Shown here: piece by piece, positions 2,926 through 55,465 of the stretch | How positions within the stretch are numbered: position 1 is the first letter of the stretch | Layout of the letters: the number at the start of each line of letters is the position of its first letter | Origin: Pneumocystis sp. 'macacae' | Lineage: Eukaryota; Ascomycota; Pneumocystomycetes; Pneumocystales; Pneumocystaceae | DNA: 64,000 nt | NCBI GenBank assembly: GCA_018127085.1 | Contig: CM030724.1 | Span: 434,001-498,000 of the forward strand | Direction of reading: 5' to 3' | Notes under the pieces: generated by a model | The model's input: only the letters and a program-made list of their open reading frames with translations | Databases searched by the model: none | What the model was told of the DNA's origin: nothing | Made by a program: the position numbers and the translations under genes

Positions 2926-4220
2926 TTACTCTTCATTTGAATCAGAATGGTCTATTGATAAGTCCTCATTTAGCTCTTCTAATGTAATACTAGATTCTAT
3001 TGCTGCTAATTCTTCTTGAGAGAGACTAACACTGGTTTTTTTTTCTTCCTGATTTATTTTTTTAGCTTGGAAATCAGAATGAGTTTTAGGTGTTGTAGTT
3101 GTTGATTTAGTATAATTTTCTAACAGAGGTATTGGTATTGTAGAAGAGTTTACTTGCTCAGTACTAAGACAGTTCCAATTAATTGTGCCATCATCACCAT
3201 ATCTTTTAGAAAGCCATTCATTTGTTTTTTTAAAGTGTCCGCAATTAAAGAATCCTTTACTTGCAGATAATGGACTAGGATGAACGCTTTTTAGAACAAG
3301 ATGAATATTTTTCTATAAAAATTTAAGATATATTTTAATATTAAAGGGAATTATACATCAACATTTTCAACTCTTTTAGCGGCAGGTGATCCCCATGCAA
3401 GAAATACTACTCCATTTACCCTATTCTTTTGTACAGCTTGAATTACTTTATCAGTAAATTCTTCCCATCCTTTTTGTGCATGACTTCCAGCTTGATGTGC
3501 ACGTACTGTTAGAGAAGAATTTAAAAGGAGAACTCCTCTTTTAGCCCATGGTGTGAGTAATCCATTTTTCGGAATATTAAATGATGCATAGTCATTTTGA
3601 AGAGCAATAAATATATTTTTAAGAGACGGAGGAGGTGGTGTAGGTGGACATACAGAGAAACAGAGTCCATGAGCTTGATTATAATTGTGGTATGGGTCTT
3701 GACCAAGGATTACGACTTTAACTGTGTCTAATGGTGTATAGTGTGACCACGAATAAATATCCTTATCTTAGTATCTTAAGTATATGATTTAGAATATTAA
3801 TTAAAATACCTGGAGGGAAAATTGTATGTATTTTTTTTTCTTGTTTTAAAAAGGCTTTAAGCTAGTTAAAAATAAGATTAATTCTATTTTCAATAATATA
3901 TCTTTCCTTTAAAAAATATGGTTTTGTAAGTTCATCTTTTAAAACGTTAAGCCAGCTTTCATGCAGGGACTCAATTTCAAGTCTATAATTATAAGATTTG
4001 ATGTCAAAGATATTTAAGTTTTTGAAAACTTGAGTAGTTCTTTTTGATCCTCTGTTAATCCTTGGATCCACTTTTGTTTATTAAATTTAGTCGTTATTGT
4101 TGCCTGATTGGCACTTTTCGAATGAAAAAAAGACATCATAGATGATTGTTTTTCTCTTTTTTCTGTATTTGTTTTTTTAAATAGAGGATCATGCTCTTTT
4201 TTTCTCTTTTTAAGATTCAT
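2926..4220 (-). CDS. UNG1: Uracil-DNA glycosylase
   Basis: Family 1 uracil-DNA glycosylase, which removes uracil from DNA in base excision repair. The N-terminus is basic and contains [11 protein letters not shown], resembling a PCNA-interacting (QxxLxxFF-like) segment. After the first intron come [18 protein letters not shown], then the catalytic water-activating motif [18 protein letters not shown], and later HPSPLSA with the conserved His. The C-terminal tail after the catalytic domain is an acidic, Ser/Glu-rich extension ending at TAA 2926-2928. There are about five introns. One of them (3862-3906) has no GT donor: the exon-intron junction reads AAAG|GAAAGA, and without removal the frame stops before the catalytic motif (see finding). 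The rest of the gene is conserved, so a functional enzyme is expected if that intron is spliced. Confidence 0.88.
3862..3906 (-). other. Non-canonical GA...AG intron in UNG1
   Basis: A 45-nt segment on the minus strand interrupts the uracil-DNA glycosylase frame between PYFLK and [10 protein letters not shown], which join directly in homologues. It begins GAAAGA and ends AACTAG. It has intron length, AT-richness and a 3' TAACTAG like its neighbours, but the donor dinucleotide is GA instead of GT; a single T-to-A change from GTAAGA would produce it. Reading through gives a stop after about 14 codons. Confidence 0.55.
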
Positions 4221-41139: not shown

Positions 41140-41315
41140 TTACGGTGAATATACTGTGTATACACGATATATACACGATATATACACTTTGTACACCCTG
41201 TATATTCTGTACACTCTATACACCCCATAGACTCTATACACCCCATACACCCCATACTATACATTATACACTTATATACACCTTATACACGCTACACCGC
41301 TGTACACACTACATT
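41140..41315. repeat. TACAC/TATACAC microsatellite-like tract
   Basis: Irregular tandem units such as TATACAC, TACACCCCATA and TGTACAC recur through this stretch just beyond the stop of the glomulin-like gene. It marks the left edge of the GC island. Related GTGTATGCG units (similar on the other strand) recur at 43130-43470. Confidence 0.6.
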
Positions 41316-42896
41316 ACTCCGCATCTACTCTGCCTCTGCTCCACACCGCCATACACTCCTCCGCCCTCTCCAGCGTGTACCTCAGCAGCTCCAGCCGCCC
41401 CACCACCTCCTCTGCCCCCCTAACCCCCCGCGCCCACCCGATCCACCGCTCCGTCGCGCCCCTCAGCGGCCCAATCCACCGCCGCCGCACCTCCCCCACC
41501 CTAACCCTAGCCCCCGTCTTCCGTTAGCCCTAACCCTGACCCTAACCCTGCCCAACCCACCTTGTCCTCCCCCGCCCTCTGCAGCAGAAAAATATACAGG
41601 TTCAGCGCCTGCATTGCAAACCCAACGTCCCCCATAAACACCTCGATCCTCTCCAACTCCTCTCCCCCCCGCCCGCCCACCCGGAAGACCTTTTCGTGCA
41701 GAAACCTCGCTGCCCACCCCACAAACCCCGTCTCCCAGTGCTCCTCCACCATGTCCTTGAGCACCCGCAGCCCCAGCACCCGCTGCTCCCCCGAGACCGC
41801 CCGCTCGATGTACGCTGCTGCCGCACTCTCCCGCCGCACCGCCCCACACACAACCCCATATGCCAGCCGCCGCACCCATCTGTCCCCTGCCGAAGTTGCC
41901 GTGGCAACGGCCTGTCCTCAGCACCCTTCTCCTGCCCTAACCCTACCTCGCTGTACCCCACAAGACACGTGTCGCCGACACCGCTGATGTCTGCTGTCTC
42001 GAGCATGCGGTGTCCCAGAAACACACACGCGTCTGCAACTGATGCTGCAAGCACGCCCTCCTGTTTTCCGCGCCCAAGCACTGTCTGCACCTCTGCCATG
42101 TGGTCGCCCGGCTGTCCGACCGCCTGTGCTGCCGCCTGCAGCAGCAGTGCGCCCGCCCGCGCTGTGCCGCTGTGCACTGCGCTCGCCAGCACCTCTGCAG
42201 TCTGCAGTGCTGCTGCTGCACGTGCACTGTCGTGTTCCCCGCATGTCCGCGCACACCACGTGCTTTGGTGTGCGCCGAAGAGAGCCTCTGCTGCGCGGCA
42301 CACAAACCCGTGCAGTGTCTGCGGTGCCTCTGTGTGTGCAGCAAGAAATGCAGCAAGCACGCCGCGCACTGTCTCTGCTGCACACGCAGTCTCTGCCGTC
42401 CACTGTCCGCTGTACAGCGTCTGCAGCAGCGCTGCTGCTGTGCGCCCCAGCACGCCCGCATACTCCGCAACAAGCACTGCACGCTGCCCTGTCCGCCCAA
42501 GCACTGTCTGTCAGCGCGGCCTCTGCTGCCAGCCCTACCGGTCTCGCTGCAGTCGCTCAGGACTGCAAGCCGTGCCGCGAGTGCGCGGACAGGCAGCAGC
42601 GCCTGCGTGTCTGCACGCAGCGCAGCGAGCGCCTCGAGCAGGCACAGCAGCACCTCTCTGGGCTGCCCGACGCGTGCACAGACACGCAGGACGCGTGCAG
42701 CACTGTCTGGCGCACTGTGCAGCAGCGCCTGCACGCGCGGGACGGCCTCCCACGCAGCGTCGCGGGCAGCGGGCGCGCGCTCAAGCAGCGCCGCAAGCGC
42801 ATCAAGTGCTGCACACTGGTGCTGCGGCGGCTGCGCAGCAAGCGCGTCGAGCCAGGGCACAAGCGCAGGCGGCGCAAGCAGTGCGTCGGAGAGCAT
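41314..42896 (-). CDS. Glomulin/YBP-like helical-repeat protein
   Basis: A GC-rich gene with Ala/Leu/Arg-rich alpha-helical sequence. Exon 1 (42539-42896) begins MLSDALLAPPALVPWLDALA and contains VGQPREVLLCLLEALAALRA, which resembles the NPKELLxxLLE segment of glomulin and the fungal Yap1-binding (DUF1760) proteins. A 35-nt intron (42504-42538) joins it to VLGRTGQRAVLVAEYAGVLG. Exon 2 runs to about 41960, with an uncertain donor there. Exon 3 contains GEQRVLGLRVLKDMVEEHWE and FMGDVGFAMQALNLYIFLLQ. A 70-nt intron (41491-41560) made mostly of TTAGGG-like repeats precedes the last exon, VRRRWIGPLRGATERW through RGRVDAE. The total is about 460 aa. Glomulin-type proteins regulate cullin-RING ligases; Ybp proteins act in stress response and at kinetochores. 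Family assignment is tentative; other HEAT/ARM proteins remain possible. Confidence 0.5.
41491..41560 (-). repeat. TTAGGG-like repeats forming an intron
   Basis: On the minus strand the segment opens GTGGGTTGGGCAGGGTTAGG, continues with further TTAGGG-like units, includes GGCTAAC (branch-point-like) and ends GGGGGAG. The reading frame of the glomulin-like gene continues exactly on both sides (GEDK then VRRRWIG). The G-runs could form a G-quadruplex in the transcript. Confidence 0.65.
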
Positions 42897-42922
42897 TGAG
42901 CAGCGTCCGGAGCAAAAGGTGG

Positions 42923-43010
42923 CGACAACGGCAGGATTCGAACCTGCGCACGGAAACCGTAAGAGATGGTCCGTTCTAATCTCTCCCCTTAACCACTCGG
43001 GCACGTTGCC
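42923..43010 (-). tRNA. tRNA-Ser (anticodon AGA) with a 6-nt intron
   Basis: On the minus strand: acceptor GGCAACG pairs with CGTTGTC (one G-U); the D arm is CCCGAGTGGTTAAGGGG; the anticodon stem AGAGA/TCTCT encloses TTAGAA plus extra bases, placing AGA at positions 34-36. A long variable arm (ACGGTTTCCGT hairpin) is characteristic of Ser/Leu tRNAs. The T arm is GCAGGTTCGAATCCTGC. The anticodon loop has 13 nt instead of 7, read as a 6-nt intron (CGGACC) after position 37. A TTTT terminator follows at 42914-42917. It lies only 26 bp upstream of the ATG of the glomulin-like gene, on the same strand. Confidence 0.9.
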
Positions 43011-43492
43011 TGTGAGGACGGCGCAGCAGAAGCGGTACTTGTGCTGTGCAGCAGCGGAGTTGCATATGCGGGTTGCGCGCTGTGCGCAATGCTGTGTGCA
43101 GCACTGTCTGGTGTGCGCTGTGCACGCTGTATACACCGCATACACTGTGTGCACTGTATGCGTGTGTATGCACTGTGCGGCGCTGCATGCGCACCATATC
43201 TGTAGTGTATGCGTAATGTATGCGTAATGTATGCGTAGTGTATGCGTAGTGTATGCACACTATGTGCACAGTGTATCTGTTGTATGCGTGTTGTATGCGC
43301 TGTATATGCGGGTGTATGCGCTGCGTGCGTCTCACGTGCATGCACGCCGCACGGGGCTGAGTGGTGCTGTATGCGTGTCTGCAGTGGCGGTGCACTGTAT
43401 CACCGCGCACACGTACTCTGCGTGTGCACTGGCATCCTCGCACACACGCATACACAGCGCATATAGCACGCATACAGTGCACACATCGAGCA
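43011..43492. promoter_or_regulatory. Divergent spacer with GTGTATGCG repeats
   Basis: Between the tRNA-Ser/glomulin unit (minus strand) and the CENP-W gene (plus strand). It contains an irregular array of TGTATGCGT(A/G) and GCACTGTG-like units, densest at 43196-43320. It presumably acts as the promoter for CENP-W and as upstream DNA for the tRNA. No conserved coding sequence. Confidence 0.5.
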
Positions 43493-43755
43493 ATGTCCAG
43501 GCTGTACCCGCGCCGGACCCTCAAGACAATCCTCAGGGCGCACCTCCCGCGGCGCCGCGTCGCAAGAAACACCGATGTGCTGGTGCGTCTCCTCTCTCTG
43601 CGTGCTGACCTCAGGTCTATCTCGACTACGTCCTCTTCCTTGCAGCGCTTGTCCGCGCAGCAGCACTCGACGCACGCAATGCCGGCGAAAGGACTCTGCG
43701 TGCACCGTCCATCCGCAGAGCCGCTCCGGTGGTCCTCGGCCGCTTCCGCGGATAG
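43493..43755 (+). CDS. CENP-W-like histone-fold kinetochore protein
   Basis: A 76-residue protein from two exons: 43493-43582 and 43615-43755, separated by a 32-nt GT-AG intron. Exon 1 encodes MSRLYPRRTLKTILRAHLPR followed by RRVARNTDVL; exon 2 starts VYLDYVLFLAALVRAAALDA and ends APSIRRAAPVVLGRFRG. The pattern of a basic P-R-x-T-L-K helix 1, the N-T-D-x-L-V-x-L start of helix 2, an Ala-rich helix 2 and a final Val-Leu-x-(K/R)-x-(K/R)-G tail is that of CENP-W, the histone-fold partner of CENP-T in the CCAN inner kinetochore. Human CENP-W has 88 residues. The gene is hard to see because of the intron and because no single ORF covers it. Codon usage is strongly GC-rich, like its neighbours. Confidence 0.75.
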
Positions 43756-43789
43756 CGTGTGCGCTGTAGCGTGTGCACGCGTGCGGCCG

Positions 43790-44506
43790 ATGGCAGGCGA
43801 GGCCGCAGAAAACGAGTATGTTGCAGCACTGTACCGGCGGCTGCGCGCATATCTCAAGAAAAAGGTCGGTCTGGCGCAGCATCTGCGCGCAGCTGACGGG
43901 GCAGGCGCGTCTAGACAGGACCGACGCGCAGCAGGCAGCGGGCGCCCGCCTGAACGCGGACCAGCTTGCGCTGCTGCGCAACAGAGACCAGATTCTTGCG
44001 CCGCTGAGAGAGCTCGAGGCACTTGCAGCACAGTTTGCGTCGCTTGGGGCGGCGCGCACAGCAGACTGCGGGACTGCGCTTGTCTGGATGCTTGTGCGGT
44101 TTCTGCGGCACGCAAGCATCACGCGGCACGTGCCAACCAGCGACGCAGTATACAACGCTGCGGTCGAGCGCGTCCTGGAGCAGGTCTACGAGGCAGACGC
44201 AGCAGCGGTCGAGACAGTCGAGAAGCTGTATGCGGGGGCACCAGACTGCATTGAGGGCTGCGAGGGGGTGACATGTGGGTTGGCAGTGTCTGGCGCAGCT
44301 GACAGGCAGACGGAGAGATGCGGGCGCAGATCGAGGCAGAGACGCAGCGGCTGGCCGGTCTGCACGGACAGGCGGGCAGTGCACAGGGCGCAGCGGACAG
44401 CAGCCGCCCTGTCGGCACTGGAGACGGGGGCGACAGTGCAGAGGGCGTGGTTTCCATGGGGCCGGGCAGCCGTGTGTCCGGCGGGACAGAGTGGGGCTGC
44501 AGGTAG
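43790..44506 (+). CDS. Caprin-like RNA-binding protein (fungal homologue)
   Basis: Three exons are read: 43790-43864 (MAGEAAENEYVAALYRRLRA, then YLKKK), 43893-44267 and 44306-44506, with introns of 28 and 38 nt. Exon 2 carries GARLNADQLALLRNRDQILA, which matches the GExLNxDQLxAxxKxxE pattern of the caprin HR1 helical region, and later TSDAVYNAAVERVLEQVYEA, matching the second conserved part of that region. Exon 3 starts ADGEMRAQIEAETQRLAGLH and becomes Gly/Ser-rich to the end. Caprin proteins bind mRNA and take part in stress granules and translation control; fungal members are poorly described. The spliced length is about 216 aa, shorter than animal caprins. Intron choices were made to keep the frame and could differ. 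Confidence 0.5.
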
Positions 44507-44544
44507 TGCGGAGGGTGTGCAGCGCGCGGGCGGTGTGCAGGGAG

Positions 44545-44775
44545 GGCTGTATAGGGTTAGGTCACAAGGGTTAGGTTGTACAGGGTTAGGGTTGGGAAGG
44601 AGCAGGTCGGAGGCAATGGTTAGGGTTAGGGCTGTGATGCATATCGAGGGTTAGGGCAGGTCTGTGTTTGGTAGGGCTAGGGCAGACTTTGCAGGGTAGG
44701 GCAGGGTGTGCAGGGGCAGGGCTAGGGCTAGGGTTGGCATATGCAGTGCGGGTTAGGGCTAGGGCTGGTGTGGCG
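44545..44775 (+). repeat. Degenerate TTAGGG/CTAGGG repeat tract
   Basis: Many scattered units of TTAGGG, CTAGGG, GTAGGG and GCAGGG over about 230 bp, between the stop of the caprin-like gene and the start of the complex I subunit gene. Units are separated by 3-20 nt of G-rich sequence, so this is not a clean telomere array. G-rich strand is the coding strand of both neighbours. Confidence 0.75.
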
Positions 44776-44805
44776 GATAGGCGGGAGGCCAGCGGACAGA
44801 CGGGC

Positions 44806-45119
44806 AATGGGGAGCGGAGCGCGGAGTGTGTTTGACGAGACCGACTATGAGGACAAAGAAGGTCTGCAGCAGCACAGAGAGGCGGCGGCTGACAGGAACA
44901 GCGCTGAGCGCAGCAAAGGACCATGCAATCCGGGAGACGTGGATCCGGGCAATGGAGATGCGGCTGGTAAAGGAGGATCTGGACAGATGCTACAGGACAG
45001 AGGGTGTTGACCACTACGAGAAGTGCCGGGAGCTGTCAGACCGGTACTGGAGGATGCTGCGGCAGGACTACAGAGTGAGGGGATATCTGGGGGACGAGCG
45101 GATGGCCAGGGATGTGTAG
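44806..45119 (+). CDS. Complex I 12-kDa subunit (NDUFB10-like)
   Basis: A small accessory subunit of mitochondrial NADH:ubiquinone oxidoreductase. Exon 1 encodes MGSGARSVFDETDYEDKE; a 34-nt intron (GTCTGCAGC...GGCTGACAG, near 44861-44894) joins it to GTALSAAKDHAIRETWIRAM. The diagnostic block is IRETWIRAMEMRLVKEDLDR followed by CYRTEGVDHYEKCRELSDRY, matching the CYR..GVNH.E.C pattern of the Neurospora NUO-12 family with its paired Cys residues. The end is VRGYLGDERMARDV. The spliced protein is about 93 aa. It implies that the organism keeps respiratory complex I. Confidence 0.78.
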
Positions 45120-45176
45120 GAAGGAGTCAGCAGTATATTTGGCGGCAGGATAAGAGGCTGCAGCGGGGCATCAGAG

Positions 45177-46836
45177 CTATGCCTGGACAGGGAGTGCAGG
45201 ATCGCCGCTGGCGGTGTTGTCTCTGTGGACGGGTCTGTTTCTGGGGGGCAGGTACTTGCCACGGGGAGCACCTCTTGTTTTCCCGCGCCCCTTGCCGTAT
45301 CTTCTTGATCCAGGGAGCTGGAACTGCCCGAATGTCTCGATGTTTTGGTTTCTTTCCTGGTCGCGCCGTGCTCTGCTGTTTTCTTTTTCTTTGTTTTCAA
45401 TACGTTCTTTATTTTCACAGGATATGTTGTCGAAGAAGGATCTCTTGCTGTCGTAGTAGCTTTCTTTGTGACAGACGGCAGGGTTGCTGGCATCGTTGGT
45501 TTCCTGGTTGCTTGATAGTTTTATTAGCTCTTCTTTGTTGAATTTAGCATTCCAATGTGTGAAATCAAACTCTTCCTTTGGTATACTAATTGCTTTTGAT
45601 GCTTTGCGGACATGTATATGTCCATTATCGCGTCGTTTTCCATAGCGCTGTGCTGAATGAGTGCCTGTATTTAGTAATTGATTGTTTTGTGGTTCTGGAT
45701 TCAAAGCATTAGAATAGAATGTGCCATCAAGCTTGTAACTGAGTTTACCTGTATCTAGTTTTGACATTTTGTCAGTCAGGTTCTGAATATCAGAAAATGC
45801 TTCGTTATTCATTGTAGAAACAGAAGTAGTGCGGGCTTTAGGCGAGCCGGCAGATGATACTGCATTTTTATGATTCACTGTTCCGTTTTTCTTAGAACCT
45901 ATATCGTGTATAGCCGAATTTTTCAGTCGTGTTGACAGAGGCATAACTGGCGCTATAGATTCTTTTTTAGACGATTTGGTTGGCAGATGGCTAGCATTGG
46001 CTCCTGCACTAGATTGTGTTACAGGGAGAGGACATAGTCGTGTGTTTGTTGTTGCAGAAGGAGAAGCTTGAGACATTGGCATCTGTAAGGACTGATTGGA
46101 AGGATGATTTGGATTGATCGGATGTTCATGGATATTGCTAACATTATCATAATAGGATGCCGCAGAAGTTCCTATCTGAAGAGCCGGAGGTGTATCATAT
46201 CCCTGATAAGAAGAATATCTTTGGGTATTTTGGTAATGCTCATGAGAGAAAGGATATCCTTGATGTGACTGAAATGATGGAGGAGCGGTTGTCTATATTT
46301 AGTAAGTTTATATCTACAAAAAACGGTTTAAAAATGTGTCTAGGAACTTCAGAGCCCATATGTTGGTTTTTCGTGTATAAACTTTTATTTTTTACACTGA
46401 AGAATATGGTTCCTATTTTTTGTCCATTTCATAAAAAAACTTTCTGTTTATATTTCAACTAACAAAAGCACATACCCTAAGTATAGCAGGATCATTCGGT
46501 ATCTGAGGAACAGCTTTAGGTGGGGCTGGCTCGTCAATTCGTAGATCTTTTACATCTGAGCCACGGAAAACAATATATTCAAAAATATTGTCTGATGGTG
46601 GAATTTCTTCCTTCGGATTCCCCTTACGCCCTTCTGTTCCATAAGAACGAACATTTTGAAGTGATATTGTAGAGTCTTTTGAATTAATATCATGAAGAAT
46701 CCCGGTATATCTATTAAAATAGTTTTTGTTAGAATTCCGTTCCAAACTAATTATTTTTCGCAGTTCAAACGACATTTTCTACTTACCGTATATCACTTCT
46801 ACTTATTAATGAGATTTTACTGTCTAGATATTCCAT
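45177..46836 (-). CDS. SCD6: SCD6/LSm14 mRNA decapping and translation repressor
   Basis: A P-body protein that represses translation and promotes decapping. Exon 1 (46787-46836) starts MEYLDSKISLISRSDIR; exon 2 continues YTGILHDINSKDSTISLQNV and IPPSDNIFEYIVFRGSDVKD, the complete LSm14 domain. A roughly 195-nt intron, long for this genome, leads to exon 3. There the DFDF box reads EEFDFTHWNAKFNKEELIKL, the FFD box ESYYDSKRSFFDNISCE and the TFG box RRDQERNQNIETFGQFQLPG, then an RG-rich tail (GKGRGKTRGAPRGKYLPP). The stop is at 45177-45179. The 5' half is AT-rich, the last about 300 bp GC-rich: the edge of the GC island falls inside this gene. An in-frame ATG within intron 1 (46775) gives a misleading longer ORF. 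Confidence 0.87.
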
Positions 46837-49664: not shown

Positions 49665-51657
49665 ATGAATTTTCCTTTTTGCTCATTAAGTCTCAGAAGA
49701 GGCAAAAGGTTGTTTTATTTTATGAAACAAAGAATCAATCAGCAAAGACTTTATTCAACTAAAGAATTGAAGTTTGGACAAGATGTACGATCTTCACTTT
49801 TGAATGGTGTTGAGGTATTAGCAAAAGGTTTTTGCATGATTATGCATTGTTTCTTGTATTTACGGTGTAATATAGCTGTTTCTGTTACTTTAGGACCGAA
49901 AGGACGGAATGTTCTTATTGAACAAAGTTTTGGAAGTCCTAAAATTACAAAGGATGGTGTAACAGTAGCAAAGAGCATTACTTTGAAAGACAAATTTGAA
50001 AATTTGGGTGCTCGGTAGCTTTTTATTGTTTTGGAAATATTTTTGGTTGATAGTATTAGTCTTGTTCAGGATGTAGCAAATAAGACAAATGAAACTGCGG
50101 GAGATGGAACAACAACCGCAACAGTGCTGGCTCGTGCAATCTTTTCAGAATCTGTTAAAAATGTTGCAGCTGGATGTAATCCAATGGATCTTCGTCGTGG
50201 TGCACAGAAAGCAGTTGATGAGGTTGTAAAGTTTTTACAAAAAAATAAACGAGATATCACAACTTCTGAAGAAATCGCTCAAGTAGCAACTATTTCTGCG
50301 AATGGTGATAAGCATATTGGTCGTCTAATTGCTAATGCAATGGAAAAAGTATTTTTTTATTTTTTTATTTTATCTAATGATATAGGTTGGTAAAGAAGGT
50401 GTAATCACTGTAAAAGAAGGAAAAACAATTGATGATGAGCTTGAAATTACAGAAGGGATGCGTTTTGATAGGGGATACATTTCACCTTATTTTATTACAG
50501 ATATTAAGACTCAAAAATGTGAATTTGAAAAACCTTTGATTCTTCTTTCTGAGAAGAAAATATCCGCGTTGCAGGACATCCTTCCATCTCTTGAAATAGC
50601 AGTGAATCAGAGGCGGCCGTTGGTTATCATAGCTGAAGACGTTGATGGCGAAGCTTTAGCTGCATGTATTTTGAACAAGCTTCGTGGTCAACTCCAAATA
50701 GCGGCTGTTAAAGCTCCTGGTTTTGGTGATAATAGGAAATCTATTTTAGGAGATATTGGTATTCTTACAGGAGGCCAAGTGTTTACTGATGAATTGGATA
50801 TGAAATTAGAGCGAGTCACACCTGAATTATTAGGTTCTACTGGCAGTGTTACAATCACTAAGGAAGATATTATTTTACTTAATGGTGATGGTGAAAAAGA
50901 TTTGATTTCTCAAAGATGTGAGCAAATTAGACTTGCTATTAATGACCCTACTACTTCTGAATATGAAAAGGAAAAGCTTCAAGAACGCCTTGCTAAGCTT
51001 AGTGGAGGTGTTGCAGTTATTCGTGTTGGTGGTTCTAGTGAAATTGAAGTTGGGGAAAAAAAAGATCGTTTTGTTGATGCAGTATGTATTATTTTATAAT
51101 GTTTGAAAGTTATAATATTCTAGTTAAATGCAACTCGTGCTGCTGTTGAAGAAGGCATTTTGCCAGGAGGTGGTACTGCTATTCTTAAGGCCGTTTCTAT
51201 TTTAGATACTATTGCTGAAAAAATGGATACATTTGATGAGAAACTAGGTGTAAAAACGATTCAAAATGCTATTCAACAGCCAACACGCCTTATTGTGCAA
51301 AATACAGGAATTGCGGATGGCTCCGTTATTATTGATAAACTTACTAAAGAGTATGGTGATCAGTTTTTAATGGGTTATGATGCGGTCACTGGTAAAATTT
51401 GCAATATGGTTTCAGCAGGAGTGGTGAGTATATAATATTTTTTTTAAATATGTACAAATTTATCTCAGGTCGATCCTTTAAAAGTTGTAAAAACTGCTTT
51501 AGTTGATGCATTTAGTGTTGCTAGTCTTATGGCTACATCAGAATGTGCAATTGTAGATGCACCTGAACCACCCAGCACGCCTGGAGGACCAGGTGGCATG
51601 GGAGGTATGGGAGGTATGGGAGGCATGGGAGGTATGGGGGGCATGGGAGGTTTTTAG
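49665..51657 (+). CDS. HSP60: Mitochondrial chaperonin HSP60
   Basis: GroEL-type chaperonin of the mitochondrial matrix. The N-terminal 35 residues are a basic, Ser-rich presequence ([20 protein letters not shown]). Conserved blocks are [58 protein letters not shown] (nucleotide-binding Asp and TTT), [20 protein letters not shown] and [20 protein letters not shown]. The protein ends in the repetitive GGMGGMGG tail typical of mitochondrial Hsp60. Five introns of about 45 nt interrupt it; the first lies within the [13 protein letters not shown] junction near 49828-49875. The length is about 570 aa. Confidence 0.97.
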
Positions 51658-51757
51658 GTGTTATTGATAATAAATCCTGCTGCCTATACAACAACCATGG
51701 TCTCATTTTTGTATTTCTTAATTTATATATATATATTTTGTATTTTTAAATAAAAAT

Positions 51758-52508
51758 TTAAGTTTTAATATTGGCATATGCTTCTTTAAAAATATTATAT
51801 AATGTATGGCAAGTATTATTGTTTAATTTTGTTGATAGAAATATTTCCAAGTCTTTCCAAAAATCTGCACTTAGTTCTAATGACTACATATATGAATATA
51901 TGTCTGATATCATAAAAAATACTTACATGAATTGTTTTGTTCTGTGTTGTACTTGCTGCCTCAGTCATTTTACAGGAGGATTGTGTTTCCTCCGTATGCA
52001 TCTTTTTTTCCATAATTATAACTTGAAGCAACAGTCTCGTTTGACTTAATTCTAATATATCTGATATTGATTTTGTATCTGTAAGAACTTTTCCTTTGTT
52101 TAAAAGCCGAACTTGAGATAATTCAACATTAAATATGCCTGAGACACTCTTTTTGATAGAATAAATCGTATCTGAACGCTGAACTTTAATATCAACGGTT
52201 TTTTTAGGTCCTCTTAATGTTTTGATTGTAATGTCAACTGTTTCTTGAATTTTTAGTTTTTTCATGAAAAAAATAATAAATAAACCTGAATCTTCATTTT
52301 CGTCTTCCTCTATGCCTTTCCATAAAGGAAGATTTATTTCTGGTAGATTTAACTGTATTTTGTCAAATATTTTTTTTATATTTAAAATTACCTCCTGAGG
52401 CACCATTTCAAGACGAGAAAGAGGTGCAATAAATTCTTCTGAAAATCTTATTGGTTTCTGTTCTAATTGTTGCAAGAAACTTCGCGCAAAGCATTTTTCC
52501 GCTTCCAT
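51758..52508 (-). CDS. GET5: GET5/UBL4-type tail-anchored protein insertion factor
   Basis: A ubiquitin-like adaptor of the GET pathway that hands tail-anchored proteins to Get3. The N-terminal Get4-binding segment reads SFLQQLEQKPIRFSEEFIAP. The ubiquitin-like fold covers DITIKTLRGPKKTVDIKVQR through LNKGKVLTDTKSISDILELS. A Ser/Thr linker is followed, after an intron that appears to run from GTACAACAC to AAGTGCAG (about 90 nt), by FWKDLEIFLSTKL and ending KEAYANIKT, which fits the small helical Get5 dimerisation domain. The stop is at 51758-51760. The start at 52508 is only 44 bp from the start of the PGA1-like gene on the other strand. Confidence 0.65.
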
Positions 52509-52552
52509 TTTTTCCTGTTTTTTATTGTCGTACGATCTACTCGTCTACTTTG

Positions 52553-53316
52553 ATGTACCGTCAAATTATTTATTTTTTATTTTTTATATCTATACACGCA
52601 AATCTTGAAAAAATTATTTTTATTACTGTCCCTGAAACATATCAAAAACAATCTTTGTCAATTTCATCTATCTTATATACTTTATCAACACCGTCTATTT
52701 TACCTACTCCTCCAACTTCATTTTCAAAACTTTTTCTTAATAAAATTTTTTTATTAGAGACACAATTAGGGTTTAATGAAAATCAAACAGCTATAGAAAC
52801 ATCGCATTGGTTTCATACACAATTGCCTTTCAACACTTTATACGAGATTCGTGTTTGTTGGCCTGCAACTGTATGTTTTTTTCTGTTTTTGTTTCATTAT
52901 TTAATTTTTAAGTCTCCAGCAAATATTGATATTTCTATTTTCTACGATGTAAAAAATAAAAAACCATCTGTTGCAACATTTTACATACGAGTAATCTCGA
53001 AGGCTGCGTATTTTTCACTTGATCCTGCTGTTATGAATAAGCACTCCCTTCCTTTGCATATTAGTAAGTGTTTAAGACAAAAAGAATAAAATATGAATAT
53101 CAAAACATTTTTTCTTGTTTTTTATATTTTTTCTTTGTCTTCTTTTCTTTATCTTCTTTTCTTCTGCTTATATCTATAGCACTTGATAAAGTTGTTTATG
53201 GTATACCATGGACGTTGCGCTGGACGCTGCTATACTGTTTCATTATTGGAGTTATTGCTTGGTTCTATTTTGGACCTTTTGTTTATTACTTTATTTGCCG
53301 GCAAATCAGTATATAG
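52553..53316 (+). CDS. PGA1-like ER membrane protein (GPI-mannosyltransferase II)
   Basis: A secretory-pathway protein with an N-terminal signal peptide (MYRQIIYFLFFISIHA) and a C-terminal membrane helix (WTLLYCFIIGVIAWFYFGPF). The lumenal part has WFHTQLPFNTLYEIRVCWPA, resembling the YEVRICWPA segment of Pga1/PIG-X-like cofactors of the second GPI mannosyltransferase. A frame extends upstream to 52451 but would overlap the GET5 coding sequence, so the ATG at 52553 is preferred. Two introns are needed, after CWPAT (GTATGTTTTT...) and after LPLHI (GTAAGTGTTT...). The spliced length is about 205 aa, close to yeast Pga1. Family assignment is tentative. Confidence 0.5.
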
Positions 53317-53478
53317 TAATAATATAAAAATACTAACTTATTGTTTTCAGTAACGAAAGAATTCTATTATTAATGATACATACATTCTAAATGTAAATCT
53401 ACTAAAACGATAAATATACCCCCTAGTTCCTCTTAACTGCATTTTCTTCATTTCATTTTCCCATTACTTTTTCATGTT

Positions 53479-55465
53479 TTAATCAACTTCTTCAACTGAA
53501 GGTCCATGATCATCATTTGCACTAGGAAAACCGCCTGGCTGAGCACCCATGCCATCCATACCAGGAATGCCACCAGTCTGATACATTTTAGACATAATAG
53601 GCCCTGCAACTGCTTCAAGCTCCTTTTGTTTGGAATCATATTCTTCTCTTGTTGCAGTCTGGTTTAAGTCTATCCATGACGTTGCATCGGCAACGGCTGC
53701 CTGAAGTTTTTCGCGATCCTGAGAAGGAATCTTGTTTTTTGTTTTGTCATCTGACAATGTATTTTTCAAACTATATGCATACGACTCCAAAGAATTCTTA
53801 GCTGAAATACGGGCAGACTCCGCTTCATCTTCTGCCTTATATTTTTCCGCTTCTTGAATCATACGTTCAATCTCTTCCTTTGATAAACGACCTTTCTCAT
53901 TCTTAATAGTAATGTTGCTTGTTTTACCTGTACCCTTTTCAACAGCAGAGACGTTAAGAATCGAATTAGCATCTATGTCAAATGTGACCTCGATTTGAGG
54001 AACACCACGAGGCGCTGGTGGAATACCAGTCAAATCGAATTGTCCAAGCAAATGACAATCTTTAGTACGTGCACGCTCACCCTCATATACTTGAATAAGC
54101 ACACCAGGCTGGTTATCCGCATAAGTAGAAAATATTTCAGATTTTTTAGTTGGGACAGTTGTATTCCGCTTAATAAGGGTTGTCATTACACCACCCGCAG
54201 TTTCGATACCCATTGAAAGAGGCGCCACATCAAGCAAAAGTATGTCTTGAGTCTGTTCTGATGTATCACCTGAAAGAATAGCTGCTTGAACTGCAGCACC
54301 ATAAGCAACAGCCTCATCTGGATTAATTGTTCTGTTTGGCTCTTTTCCGTTAAAGAAATCAGAAACCAATTTCTGAATACGAGGAATACGTGTAGAACCA
54401 CCAACCAACACAATTTCATGAACACTTGATTTATCAAGTTTAGCATCACGAAGAACTTTTTCAACTGGCTCCATCGTTCCTCGAAAGAGGTCTTGGCAAA
54501 GCTCCTCGAATCGAGCACGAGTAATAGAAGTATACAAATCAATACCCTCAAATAAAGAGTCAATTTCTATACTTGTTTGTGTTGACGATGAAAGAGTCCG
54601 TTTGGCACGTTCGCATGCTGTTCGAAGTCGCCGAAGAGAACGTGCATTTCCTGAAATATCTTTCTTGTGTTTACGCTTAAACTCTGCAATAAAGTGATTC
54701 ACAAGACGATTGTCGAAATCTTCTCCTCCCAAATGAGTATCACCTGCTGTTGCTTTGACTTCAAAAATCCCCTCTTCAATTGTTAATAATGATACGTCAA
54801 AAGTCCCTCCTCCAAGATCAAAGATAAGTACATTCTTCTCATTTGATGTCTTTTTATCTAGGCCATATGCAATAGCTGCTGCTGTAGGCTCATTGATAAT
54901 ACGTAAAACATTCAATCCTGCAATCAATCCTGCATCTTTCGTGGCCTGTCGTTGTGAATCATTGAAATATGCTGGAACCGTGATAACCGCATTGGTTACT
55001 TTAATTCCAAGATATGCTTCAGCTACTTCCTTCATTTTTATAAGAACCATCGACGAAATCTCCTCCGGTGTAAATGTTTTCGTCTCCCCTTTATATTCAA
55101 CTTGAATATAAGGCTTTTGACCCTTATCTATAACTTTGAAAGGCCAATGCTTCATATCTGATTGTACTTCCGCATCTGCGAACTTCCGTCCAATTAGGCG
55201 TTTTGCATCAAATACTGTATTGCACGGATTCATTGCAACCTGGTTCTTTGCTGCATCTCCAATAAGTCTTTCTGAATCCGTAAATGCCACATATGATGGA
55301 GTGGTCCGGTTGCCTTGATCATTTGCTATAATCTCTACATGTCCATCTGACCATACTCCCACGCATGAAAACGTGGTTCCCAAATCAATACCAACTGCAA
55401 AAATATTAATTATCTTGATATTTTATAAATAATATTCTATACTCACTTGCTTTTTCTAGTACCAT
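53479..55465 (-). CDS. SSA1: Cytosolic HSP70 (SSA type)
   Basis: ATP-dependent chaperone of the cytosol and nucleus. A small first exon encodes MVLEKA, and the intron (GTGAGTATAG...TTTGCAG) splits the Ile codon, giving [20 protein letters not shown]. Signature motifs are [33 protein letters not shown] and the substrate-binding domain from about residue 395. The C-terminus GPSVEEVD carries the EEVD motif that binds TPR co-chaperones, marking it as cytosolic. The main exon is uninterrupted for 634 codons, unlike most genes here, and its codon usage is richer in G+C, as expected for a highly expressed gene. Confidence 0.97.

Follow-up and report, generated by a model that had tools for sequence, protein, structure and literature searches.

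Mirror-image strand skew in a class of GC-rich islands of the Pneumocystis macacae genome, possible marks of recurrent double-strand breaks

Results

A GC-rich island in the 64-kb window

The window, meaning the whole 64-kb stretch of DNA that was analysed, comes from Pneumocystis macacae, a macaque lung fungus that is difficult to grow in culture. With island borders placed where G+C was at least 0.5 under 301-bp smoothing, a 4.1-kb zone was delimited (Table 1), with a peak G+C of 0.73, close to the GC-rich patch placed at 41,300-45,450 by a preliminary description made from the sequence. That description had named recomputation of G+C as one of the checks that could overturn it; the recomputed mean was 0.637 (about 64%), well above the 0.266 (27%) of the 58 1-kb windows lying outside 40-46 kb (s.d. 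0.049, maximum 0.405). The successive 1-kb windows from 41 to 45 kb had G+C values of 0.574, 0.670, 0.610, and 0.641. The left edge was a slope across which G+C rose over about 0.7 kb; at the right edge it fell inside about 0.3 kb and then held a shoulder of about 0.4 until about 46.3 kb.

When the island centre was defined as the minimum of cumulative G-C, the plus strand was C-rich in the left arm and G-rich in the right arm. Elsewhere in the window, the G/C skew was +0.091 to the left of the island and +0.054 to its right, with no change of sign. The degenerate short-unit array near the centre resembles arrays at other candidate islands.

Several of the genes named in the preliminary description were recovered. 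Joining its two exons gave CENP-W a Pfam match with an E-value of 7.9e-6 and 26.5 bits (cut-off 25). In SCD6, the exon carrying the FDF domain (45,177-46,082) reaches into the island, as had been described, and the LSM14 domain lies in an exon beyond the zone (46,455-46,775). The gene proposed as tRNA-Ser was confirmed as a tRNA gene by Rfam, the serine identity being that of the preliminary description; ARAGORN reported no tRNA. A glomulin-like gene had also been proposed, and GenBank annotates a protein at that locus (P0036), but the Pfam match stayed below threshold (E-values of 0.016 and 0.027). Among the 7,997 candidates with most words in common with this protein, which were the ones scored in an orthologue search, its own P. 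macacae entry was the only match. Neither the caprin-like nor the complex I subunit label obtained support from Pfam.

Table 1 Features of the GC-rich island in the window (window coordinates)
Feature	Position	Strand	Basis or remark
GC-rich island	41270..45369		G+C >= 0.5, 301-bp smoothing; mean 0.637
Left arm, plus strand C-rich, skew -0.32	41270..42752		G/C skew
Right arm, plus strand G-rich, skew +0.18	42753..45369		G/C skew
Glomulin-like (YAP/Alf4/glomulin) gene, predicted 4 exons, TTAGGG motifs in introns	41317..42896	-	Sub-threshold Pfam; exon 4 by inspection
tRNA gene	42923..43010	-	Rfam RF00005, 46.5 bits
Degenerate short-unit array (~9-11 bp, TGTATGC/GTAGTG type), near centre	43127..43320	+	Sequence
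CENP-W gene, 2 exons (43,493-43,582; 43,615-43,755)	43493..43755	+	Pfam after exon joining
Reading frame labelled caprin-like in the preliminary description, approximate limits	43790..44275	+	Without Pfam support
Reading frame labelled complex I subunit in the preliminary description	44826..45119	+	Without Pfam support
SCD6 (FDF + LSM14 domains)	45177..46775	-	Pfam; 3' end in island, 5' end in AT-rich DNA

The window island is one member of a class

A search for further islands, which the preliminary description had proposed as a check, revealed many with the same shape and polarity, so that the patch is not the singular object it had been taken for. Pattern and BLAST searches gave about 69 candidate places, 2-6 per contig on 16 contigs, among the matches listed. 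This figure is a candidate count of clusters, of which 52 hold at least two entered matches, and 18 places were actually read. Matches near contig ends, most poly-G runs, and several TTAGGG matches in AT-rich sequence were left out of the count; the poly-G run at C11:465,736 was counted as a lone cluster, and clusters were entered without every member match. The genome probably contains several dozen similar islands.

All 17 islands read had zones of 3-6 kb (2.96-5.81 kb) at 59-66% G+C, with a C-rich left half and a G-rich right half, and this polarity was kept in 17 of 17 when they were split at the plain midpoint; for two of them, L051 and L053, the left end is perhaps incomplete in the sequence read. 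An eighteenth island, partly read, agreed in composition and polarity. On contigs C2, C3, C4, C5, and C10, more than one island was read. The 17 were chosen from GC-run and array matches once the polarity of TTAGGG motifs had been noticed, and the island at C4:234 kb was chosen partly for that polarity; because selection started from GC-rich matches, weak or skewless islands would escape notice.

The mean G+C profile was symmetric, with a plateau of about 0.65 within about 1 kb of the centre, a value of 0.5 at about 2 kb, and a return to near baseline by 3-4 kb. All site classes showed the rise, with a central peak and a decay across 2-3 kb. An isochore extends over hundreds of kilobases, a span that the measured zones do not approach. 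The islands read carry ordinary fungal housekeeping domains.

Strand skew is positional and independent of gene direction

Third codon positions were compared between Pfam-matched stretches pointing towards the centre and away from it. All 14 inward stretches, from 12 genes, were C-rich, and 15 of the 18 outward stretches were G-rich, two of the others being negative and one zero. These 32 were counted out of 36 stretches entered; codons were excluded if they fell beyond the zone or no more than 200 bp from the centre, which dropped L039 UCH, L043 RING, the second L045 Es2, and the weak glomulin stretches. The comparison rests on these counts, as Fisher values would treat codons as independent. 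The GATA and UBC stretches among the counted outward ones score below the curated Pfam cut-off, and the divergent gene arrangement at L046 includes a GATA match below cut-off. At fourfold degenerate sites lying 400-1,200 bp away from the centre, C made up 0.74-0.75 and G 0.07 of the bases on one strand, and fourfold C was 0.668 in inward and 0.675 in outward genes. The skew tracks position relative to the centre, independently of gene direction.

The skew was confined to about 2.5 kb and absent by about 3 kb from the centre. Within the islands the A/T skew was near zero, the strand that would be 3'-ended after a central break gaining C at the cost of both A and T. The central arrays did not follow the strand rule, with GCATA/TATGC counts of 119/59 on the left and 96/109 on the right.

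One gene crosses an island slope

The preliminary description had noted a shift towards Ala, Arg, and Gly in the proteins of the patch; it was seen in the window translations and quantified in a gene of another island. A single open TTI1 reading frame runs across an island slope, and its GC3 drops from 0.84 to 0.17 along the way. The P. macacae protein aligned over its length with TTI1 of P. jirovecii, with an identity of 0.83 outside the GC-rich core and 0.39 within it. None of the 28 TTI1 matches was named as P. macacae. The drive in the islands acts at the codon level within conserved genes and overrides amino-acid constraint.

The GARP values of TTI1 in the core and outside were 0.264 and 0.114 in P. 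jirovecii, 0.194 and 0.119 in P. oryctolagi, 0.183 and 0.148 in P. wakefieldiae, and 0.138 and 0.143 in P. murina. At the protein level and in this one gene, P. jirovecii may therefore carry a weaker island in the corresponding position. Core identity was also low in pairs without a strong island (core versus outside: P. jirovecii-P. oryctolagi, 0.47 and 0.75; P. oryctolagi-P. murina, 0.45 and 0.67; P. jirovecii-P. murina, 0.34 and 0.71). Since the core is less conserved there too, faster TTI1 evolution driven by the island is not established.

Recombination and repair proteins

The genome contains a match to TP6A_N, the Spo11-type protein, above cut-off. Matches to the DMC1 model, for a RecA-type recombinase, were found at two loci, split over exons and each below cut-off because exons score separately. 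Glycosylase-family (PF03167) matches were also present at two loci.

Discussion

A break-hotspot interpretation

We consider it moderately probable that the islands are long-lived, fixed double-strand-break hotspots, most likely those of meiotic Spo11, at which repair has enriched C on the 3'-ended strand; the argument is built on base composition and gene models. Breaks would recur near the island centre over long evolutionary time, and resection would bare the 3'-ended strand for about 2 kb to either side, the plus strand to the left and the minus strand to the right. With a break at its centre, the left arm of the window island would correspond to the 3'-ended plus strand and the right arm to the 3'-ended minus strand. 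The 3'-ended strand would pair with the homologue to form heteroduplex, in which mismatch correction would favour C on that strand, and thereby G on the opposite one. Over many rounds this could raise G+C from about 0.27 to 0.65, leaving C-rich left and G-rich right arms across genes, introns, and spacers. Under a possible donor-strand rule, the donor's base would prevail more often at mismatches in which the donor strand carries G (G.T, G.A, G.G) than at those with donor C, of which C.C is refractory to correction; on the 3'-ended strand, C would then be the most favoured base and G the least.

Plain GC-biased gene conversion is insufficient, because it predicts no strand bias, yet nearly all of the gain is of C on one strand and of G on the other. 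The strand-symmetric AT-to-GC bias expected of it does not appear at the fourfold sites, where one strand has 0.74-0.75 C and 0.07 G. A recombination hotspot with GC-biased conversion was among the explanations offered in the preliminary description; the hotspot half of it fits best of those options, given the many islands of the same shape, the symmetric decay, and the codon-level drive, but the usual form of biased conversion does not account for the strand flip.

Alternative explanations

The same hotspots might owe their composition not to biased conversion but to mutations arising while repair DNA is synthesised or while single strands lie exposed. In human hotspots, mutation is strand-asymmetric across 2 kb of flanking DNA, in the same geometry, according to the available part of PMC7615360; we nevertheless judge this version unlikely, since the human 3'-ended strand loses C and A there and the island 3'-ended strand gains C, and since amino-acid constraint would be overridden more readily by a fixation bias. 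If the centres were replication origins or fork-stalling sites, with a G-rich leading and a C-rich lagging strand, the sign of the skew would fit, G being enriched on both sides on the strand made outward from the centre. A skew that reaches only about 2.5 kb and is not replicon-wide, the identical sign on both window flanks, and a rise in G+C that this leaves unexplained make origins rather improbable. Divergent transcription from the centre, through a bidirectional promoter, R-loops, or a CpG-island-like element, is in our view similarly improbable. The centres of L040, L043, L046, and L049 fall between divergent genes or at their edge, and outward non-coding transcripts from every centre are possible; other centres, such as those of L042 and L044, lack such a gene layout, and the inward stretches are C-rich on the coding strand about as strongly as the outward ones are G-rich, which rejects transcription of the genes as the sole cause of the skew. 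The CpG observed/expected ratio was 0.91 on the C-rich strand of the islands and 0.79 in the flanks, not above expectation, and a CpG island was rejected on that ground.

Kinetochore-associated chromatin deserves mention because Mis12 peaks occur 4-6 times per P. macacae chromosome in GC-rich regions (PMC10327204, available part), near the number of candidate islands per contig. We regard it as very unlikely: in the same part of that preprint the authors admit possible ChIP artefacts, take the centromere to be one H3K9me2-flanked peak per chromosome, and map P. murina and P. carinii centromeres that are lower in G+C. A mirror-image strand bias has no evident reason in kinetochore chromatin, and the candidate islands are not one per chromosome but 2-6 per contig on the 16 contigs, among the matches listed. 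Foreign DNA, contamination, or an assembly chimera would suit a base composition alien to the rest of the genome. Such an origin is extremely improbable and was rejected, as the open TTI1 frame spans the slope and aligns along its length with the P. jirovecii protein, and 17 of 17 islands share one profile and native fungal housekeeping domains; the view in the preliminary description that the patch is neither foreign nor selfish DNA therefore stands. Its suggestion of a former subtelomere is unlikely, because there are dozens of candidate places and those read hold housekeeping genes. The telomere-like TTAGGG motifs seemed at first to favour a subtelomeric relic, which was rejected because they are scattered and lie in GC-rich introns in the one gene whose splicing was worked out; no tandem TTAGGG with subtelomeric gene families was found in the islands read.

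Implications

Should the islands be break hotspots, recombination could be mapped from base composition alone, to within a few hundred bases and together with the length of the resected strand. Rather tentatively, the genome may hold a strand-resolved fossil record of meiotic break hotspots, with several dozen fixed centres, 3'-ended strands of about 75% C at free sites, and donor-strand-G alleles winning strongly enough to rewrite proteins; positions, centres, and resection lengths would then be readable from a single genome. The strand rule would also make a long-confounded question testable, whether the GC bias of conversion is due to base-excision repair, which is symmetric and predicts no skew, or to mismatch correction directed by strand. 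In practice, proteins such as TTI1 shift composition midway, orthologues may be harder to detect, and ChIP peaks over GC-rich DNA may be mistaken for additional kinetochore sites.

Comparison with known systems

The published accounts cited here and above were available in part, and the comparisons apply to those parts. Human meiotic break hotspots are resected over 1-2 kb per side and mutate asymmetrically in the 2 kb that flank them (PMC7615360). These PRDM9 hotspots resemble the islands in having arms of about 2 kb and a centre at which the strand asymmetry flips. They differ in that the human signal consists of mutations, whereas in P. macacae the whole composition is rewritten at fixed sites, and in the sign of the change in C on the 3'-ended strand; because that sign is opposite, a different repair outcome must be assumed for P. 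macacae. Strand-biased mismatch resolution is described in single-strand annealing, although in mouse cells and outside meiosis (PMC9001825).

Work on GC-biased gene conversion, with the runaway GC evolution of gerbils as one case (PMC7403616; PMC6573468), likewise describes locally raised G+C as a driver of amino-acid change in conserved genes, but the parts available use 'GC skew' for G+C content and describe no strand asymmetry about a centre. In the conversion-tract model (PMC3020949), G+C is similarly tied to tracts that decay away from break sites, whereas strand asymmetry is not mentioned in the text at hand. Evolutionarily stable positions are known in principle from promoter-like hotspots without PRDM9 control (PMC11703093); the available part of that work makes no mention of so large a composition change with a strand flip, and the putative P. 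macacae hotspots are, unlike those, deduced from sequence. Closest to the present case are the P. macacae Mis12 peaks, which 'tend to occur in GC rich regions', unexplained in the part of the preprint available (PMC10327204): the species is the same and the GC-rich places are probably the same regions as the islands, although the islands, their strand asymmetry, and their gene content are not described in that part.

Islands across the genome

The GC-rich island of the window is a real, strong and repeated feature of the Pneumocystis macacae genome, and is bigger than the finding that prompted its analysis. The window is C5:434,001-498,000 of this genome (8.27 Mb, 19 contigs) and encodes PMAC_002532 at 100% identity, the next-best match being P. 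jirovecii at 75%. Islands were delimited as zones with G+C of at least 0.5 in 301-bp smoothing; outside 41-46 kb of the window, G+C in 1-kb windows was 0.15-0.41. The preliminary description had set a GC-rich gene island at 41,300-45,450, and the measured zone showed its coordinates to be correct. The tRNA, CENP-W and the end of SCD6 that it named there were all found; its glomulin-like gene was weakly supported, with a GenBank protein at the same place, while the caprin-like and complex I reading frames had no Pfam support. Gene models within islands may be unreliable.

When the window island was compared with its own genome by BLAST, related arrays were matched on other contigs (29 matches including itself; 31, including itself, with a second array query), and a pattern search marked dozens of GC-rich places by their G/C runs. 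When the entered hits among the matches listed were clustered, 69 candidate places emerged across 16 contigs, with 2-6 per contig, and 52 of the 69 had at least two entered hits. Sixteen islands besides that of the window, and part of one more, were fetched.

A shared profile with a central skew flip

All 17 islands had a zone of 2.96-5.81 kb (the left end of two, L051 and L053, may be cut by the fetched stretch), with mean G+C of 0.59-0.66 and flanks of 0.24-0.32. Splitting each at its midpoint gave a C-rich left half (-0.16 to -0.46) and a G-rich right half (+0.11 to +0.46) in 17 of 17, for which the chance is 2^-17 given even odds per island. An 18th island at C5:318-324 kb, with its flank covered for the right part only, flipped in the same direction, from -0.66 to +0.45. 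As a control, none of 14 non-overlapping 4-kb stretches of the window had this pattern; among 198 overlapping ones, the signs were right in 34 and reached at least 0.11 on both sides in six.

Aligned on the centre, taken as the minimum of cumulative G-C, the mean profile was symmetric: G+C was about 0.65 for roughly 1 kb on either side, had fallen to 0.5 some 2 kb out, and was close to baseline at 3-4 kb. In the left arm, C rose from 0.14 to 0.43 and G reached only about 0.2 (0.26 adjoining the centre); on the right arm the roles of C and G were swapped, and A/T skew stayed within about 0.1 of zero.

Coordinates of features in and around the islands (L numbers, fetched islands; C numbers, contigs)
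Feature	Location	Remark
Window island zone	window 41,270-45,369	mean G+C 0.637
P0036 (PMAC_002539)	window 41,317-42,896	uses another frame for part of the island than the exon reading
CENP-W	window 43,493-43,755	chromosome-biology gene
CENP-S	L040:3964-4350	chromosome-biology gene
TRF	L041:5946-6356	chromosome-biology gene
Histone H3	L047:4458-4904	chromosome-biology gene
Tandem TATACACCC/TATACACTC array	window 41,159-41,257	left edge of island
Array pair	window 43,195-43,321 and C2:197,405-197,531	91% alike
Array pair	C1:561,864-562,364 and C3:291,997-292,262	87% alike
Mildly raised G+C	window 50,000-55,000	0.34-0.41 in 4 of 5 1-kb windows; 5-10 kb from island; possibly an island still young or in decay
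PF03167 (uracil-DNA-glycosylase-family) match	window 3,267-3,737	
Telomeric TTAGGG repeats, then tandem array	C10:4-536	contig start; 28-base unit containing TTAGGG
Near-identical GC-rich stretch (matched over 24 bases, with one-base variants)	C1:8032, C2:8100, C3:305, C13:6509, C16:10592	near contig ends, among the matches listed; probably subtelomeric and unrelated to islands

Independence from gene direction

Pfam matches in the islands included SWIRM, GMPPB, TRF, CDC14, UBR, Snf7, MCM, RING, CDC37, EF-hand, Es2, mitochondrial carrier, TTI1, CENP-S, GST, acyltransferase, histone H3, adenylosuccinate synthetase, amine oxidase, cyclophilin, PIN, Smr, UbiA and actin. Third-position skew on the coding strand was -0.59 in stretches read towards the centre (1,169 codons; negative in 14 of 14, from 12 genes) and +0.46 in those read away from it (1,838 codons; positive in 15 of 18, zero in one, negative in two), with fourfold G:C counts of 56:427 and 677:123, respectively. 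The skew is independent of gene direction: on the strand that a central break would leave 3'-ended (plus on the left arm, minus on the right), the fourfold share of C agreed between inward (0.668, 639 sites) and outward stretches (0.675, 1,097 sites). At 400-1,200 bp from the centre, fourfold sites on this strand held C at 0.74-0.75, G at 0.07, A at 0.05-0.07 and T at 0.11-0.12, so the rise is almost entirely one of C on this strand; below 400 bp, C was 0.53 and G 0.24, and by 2.4-2.8 kb the bias was absent.

TTI1 on an island slope

In the island L046, TTI1 occupies one open frame of 1,148 codons with three Pfam domains from residue 140, and this unbroken frame across the slope disfavours an assembly chimera. 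In 82-codon blocks, GC3 was 0.71-0.84 at about 0.1-1.4 kb from the centre, except for 0.60 in the first block, which could precede the true start; it dropped to 0.17-0.18 past 2.6 kb, and GARP residues fell from up to 0.50 to 0.04-0.13. Among the TTI1 matches, none bore the name P. macacae.

Its orthologues came from P. jirovecii, P. oryctolagi, P. murina and P. wakefieldiae, with a partial one from P. canis. The GARP fraction of the core (residues 240-540) was 0.399 in P. macacae, 0.264 in P. jirovecii, 0.194 in P. oryctolagi, 0.183 in P. wakefieldiae, 0.138 in P. murina and 0.117 in P. canis; outside it (740-1148), the values were 0.132, 0.114, 0.119, 0.148, 0.143 and 0.191 (94 residues only), respectively. 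Two other fungi had no such fall from core to outside (Capronia, 0.235/0.246; Aspergillus, 0.204/0.228). These sequences suggest a weaker island at the TTI1 site in P. jirovecii. Identity between P. macacae and P. jirovecii was 0.39 in the core and 0.83 outside; the core is the faster part in other species pairs too, so this difference does not prove that the island speeds up evolution.

Arrays and TTAGGG motifs

Arrays rich in GCATACA/TATGCG lay near several island centres, and some of these central arrays were 87-91% alike across different chromosomes, a likeness suggestive of exchange between ectopic sites or of a dispersed repeat that they have in common. Pairs of TTAGGG spaced by 0-25 bases occurred 53 times on the plus and 106 times on the minus strand of the genome, true telomeres included (reversed control, 6 and 6). 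Within the 17 islands the motif followed the arms, with 47 CCCTAA and one TTAGGG on the left and five CCCTAA and 17 TTAGGG on the right. By the exon reading, the glomulin-like gene carries the left-arm motifs of the window within GC-rich introns, so these motifs need not be telomeric.

Discussion

The terms 'GC content' and 'GC-rich' are absent from the main text of the P. macacae genome paper (PMC7940399), as are 'GC-rich', 'G+C' and 'isochore' from the 2016 genome paper (PMC4764891). Among the open-access papers listed for Pneumocystis with GC-rich sequence and centromeres, with biased gene conversion or with recombination hotspots, and for P. macacae, none described such islands in its title or the start of its abstract. 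In the available text of a centromere preprint (PMC10327204), P. macacae Mis12 peaks, 4-6 per chromosome, 'tend to occur in GC rich regions'; its authors considered these peaks possible artefacts and left the matter undecided.

The existence of the islands as a class, their symmetry and the independence of the skew from gene direction are established here; their cause is inferred. We lean, with modest confidence, towards the islands being break hotspots with strand-biased conversion. The centre would be the site of double-strand breaks and the 2-kb arms the resected strands, the asymmetry reversing at the centre. The genome has a Spo11-type domain match, and two of its loci match RecA-type recombinases below the DMC1 cut-off. 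On its own, symmetric GC-biased conversion does not suffice: G should have gained along with C, yet the gain is almost all C on the 3'-ended strand. Replication origins at the centres, or transcription diverging from them, would give a like polarity; either predicts the one observed, but each, tested in part, missed one test. For break-associated conversion, we favour a rule by which correction would be more frequent when the donor strand contributes G to the mismatch than when it contributes C. C.C mismatches tend to escape correction.

Break processing can set the winning strand of a mismatch, at 60-80% in a mouse single-strand-annealing assay, where, in the available text of PMC9001825, mismatch type mattered little; this small effect counts against the proposed donor-G rule. 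At human hotspots, the asymmetry about the break shows in mutations, and the 3'-ended strand loses C and A according to the available text of PMC7615360, whereas in the P. macacae islands it gains C; with the sign for C opposite, a different repair outcome would be needed.
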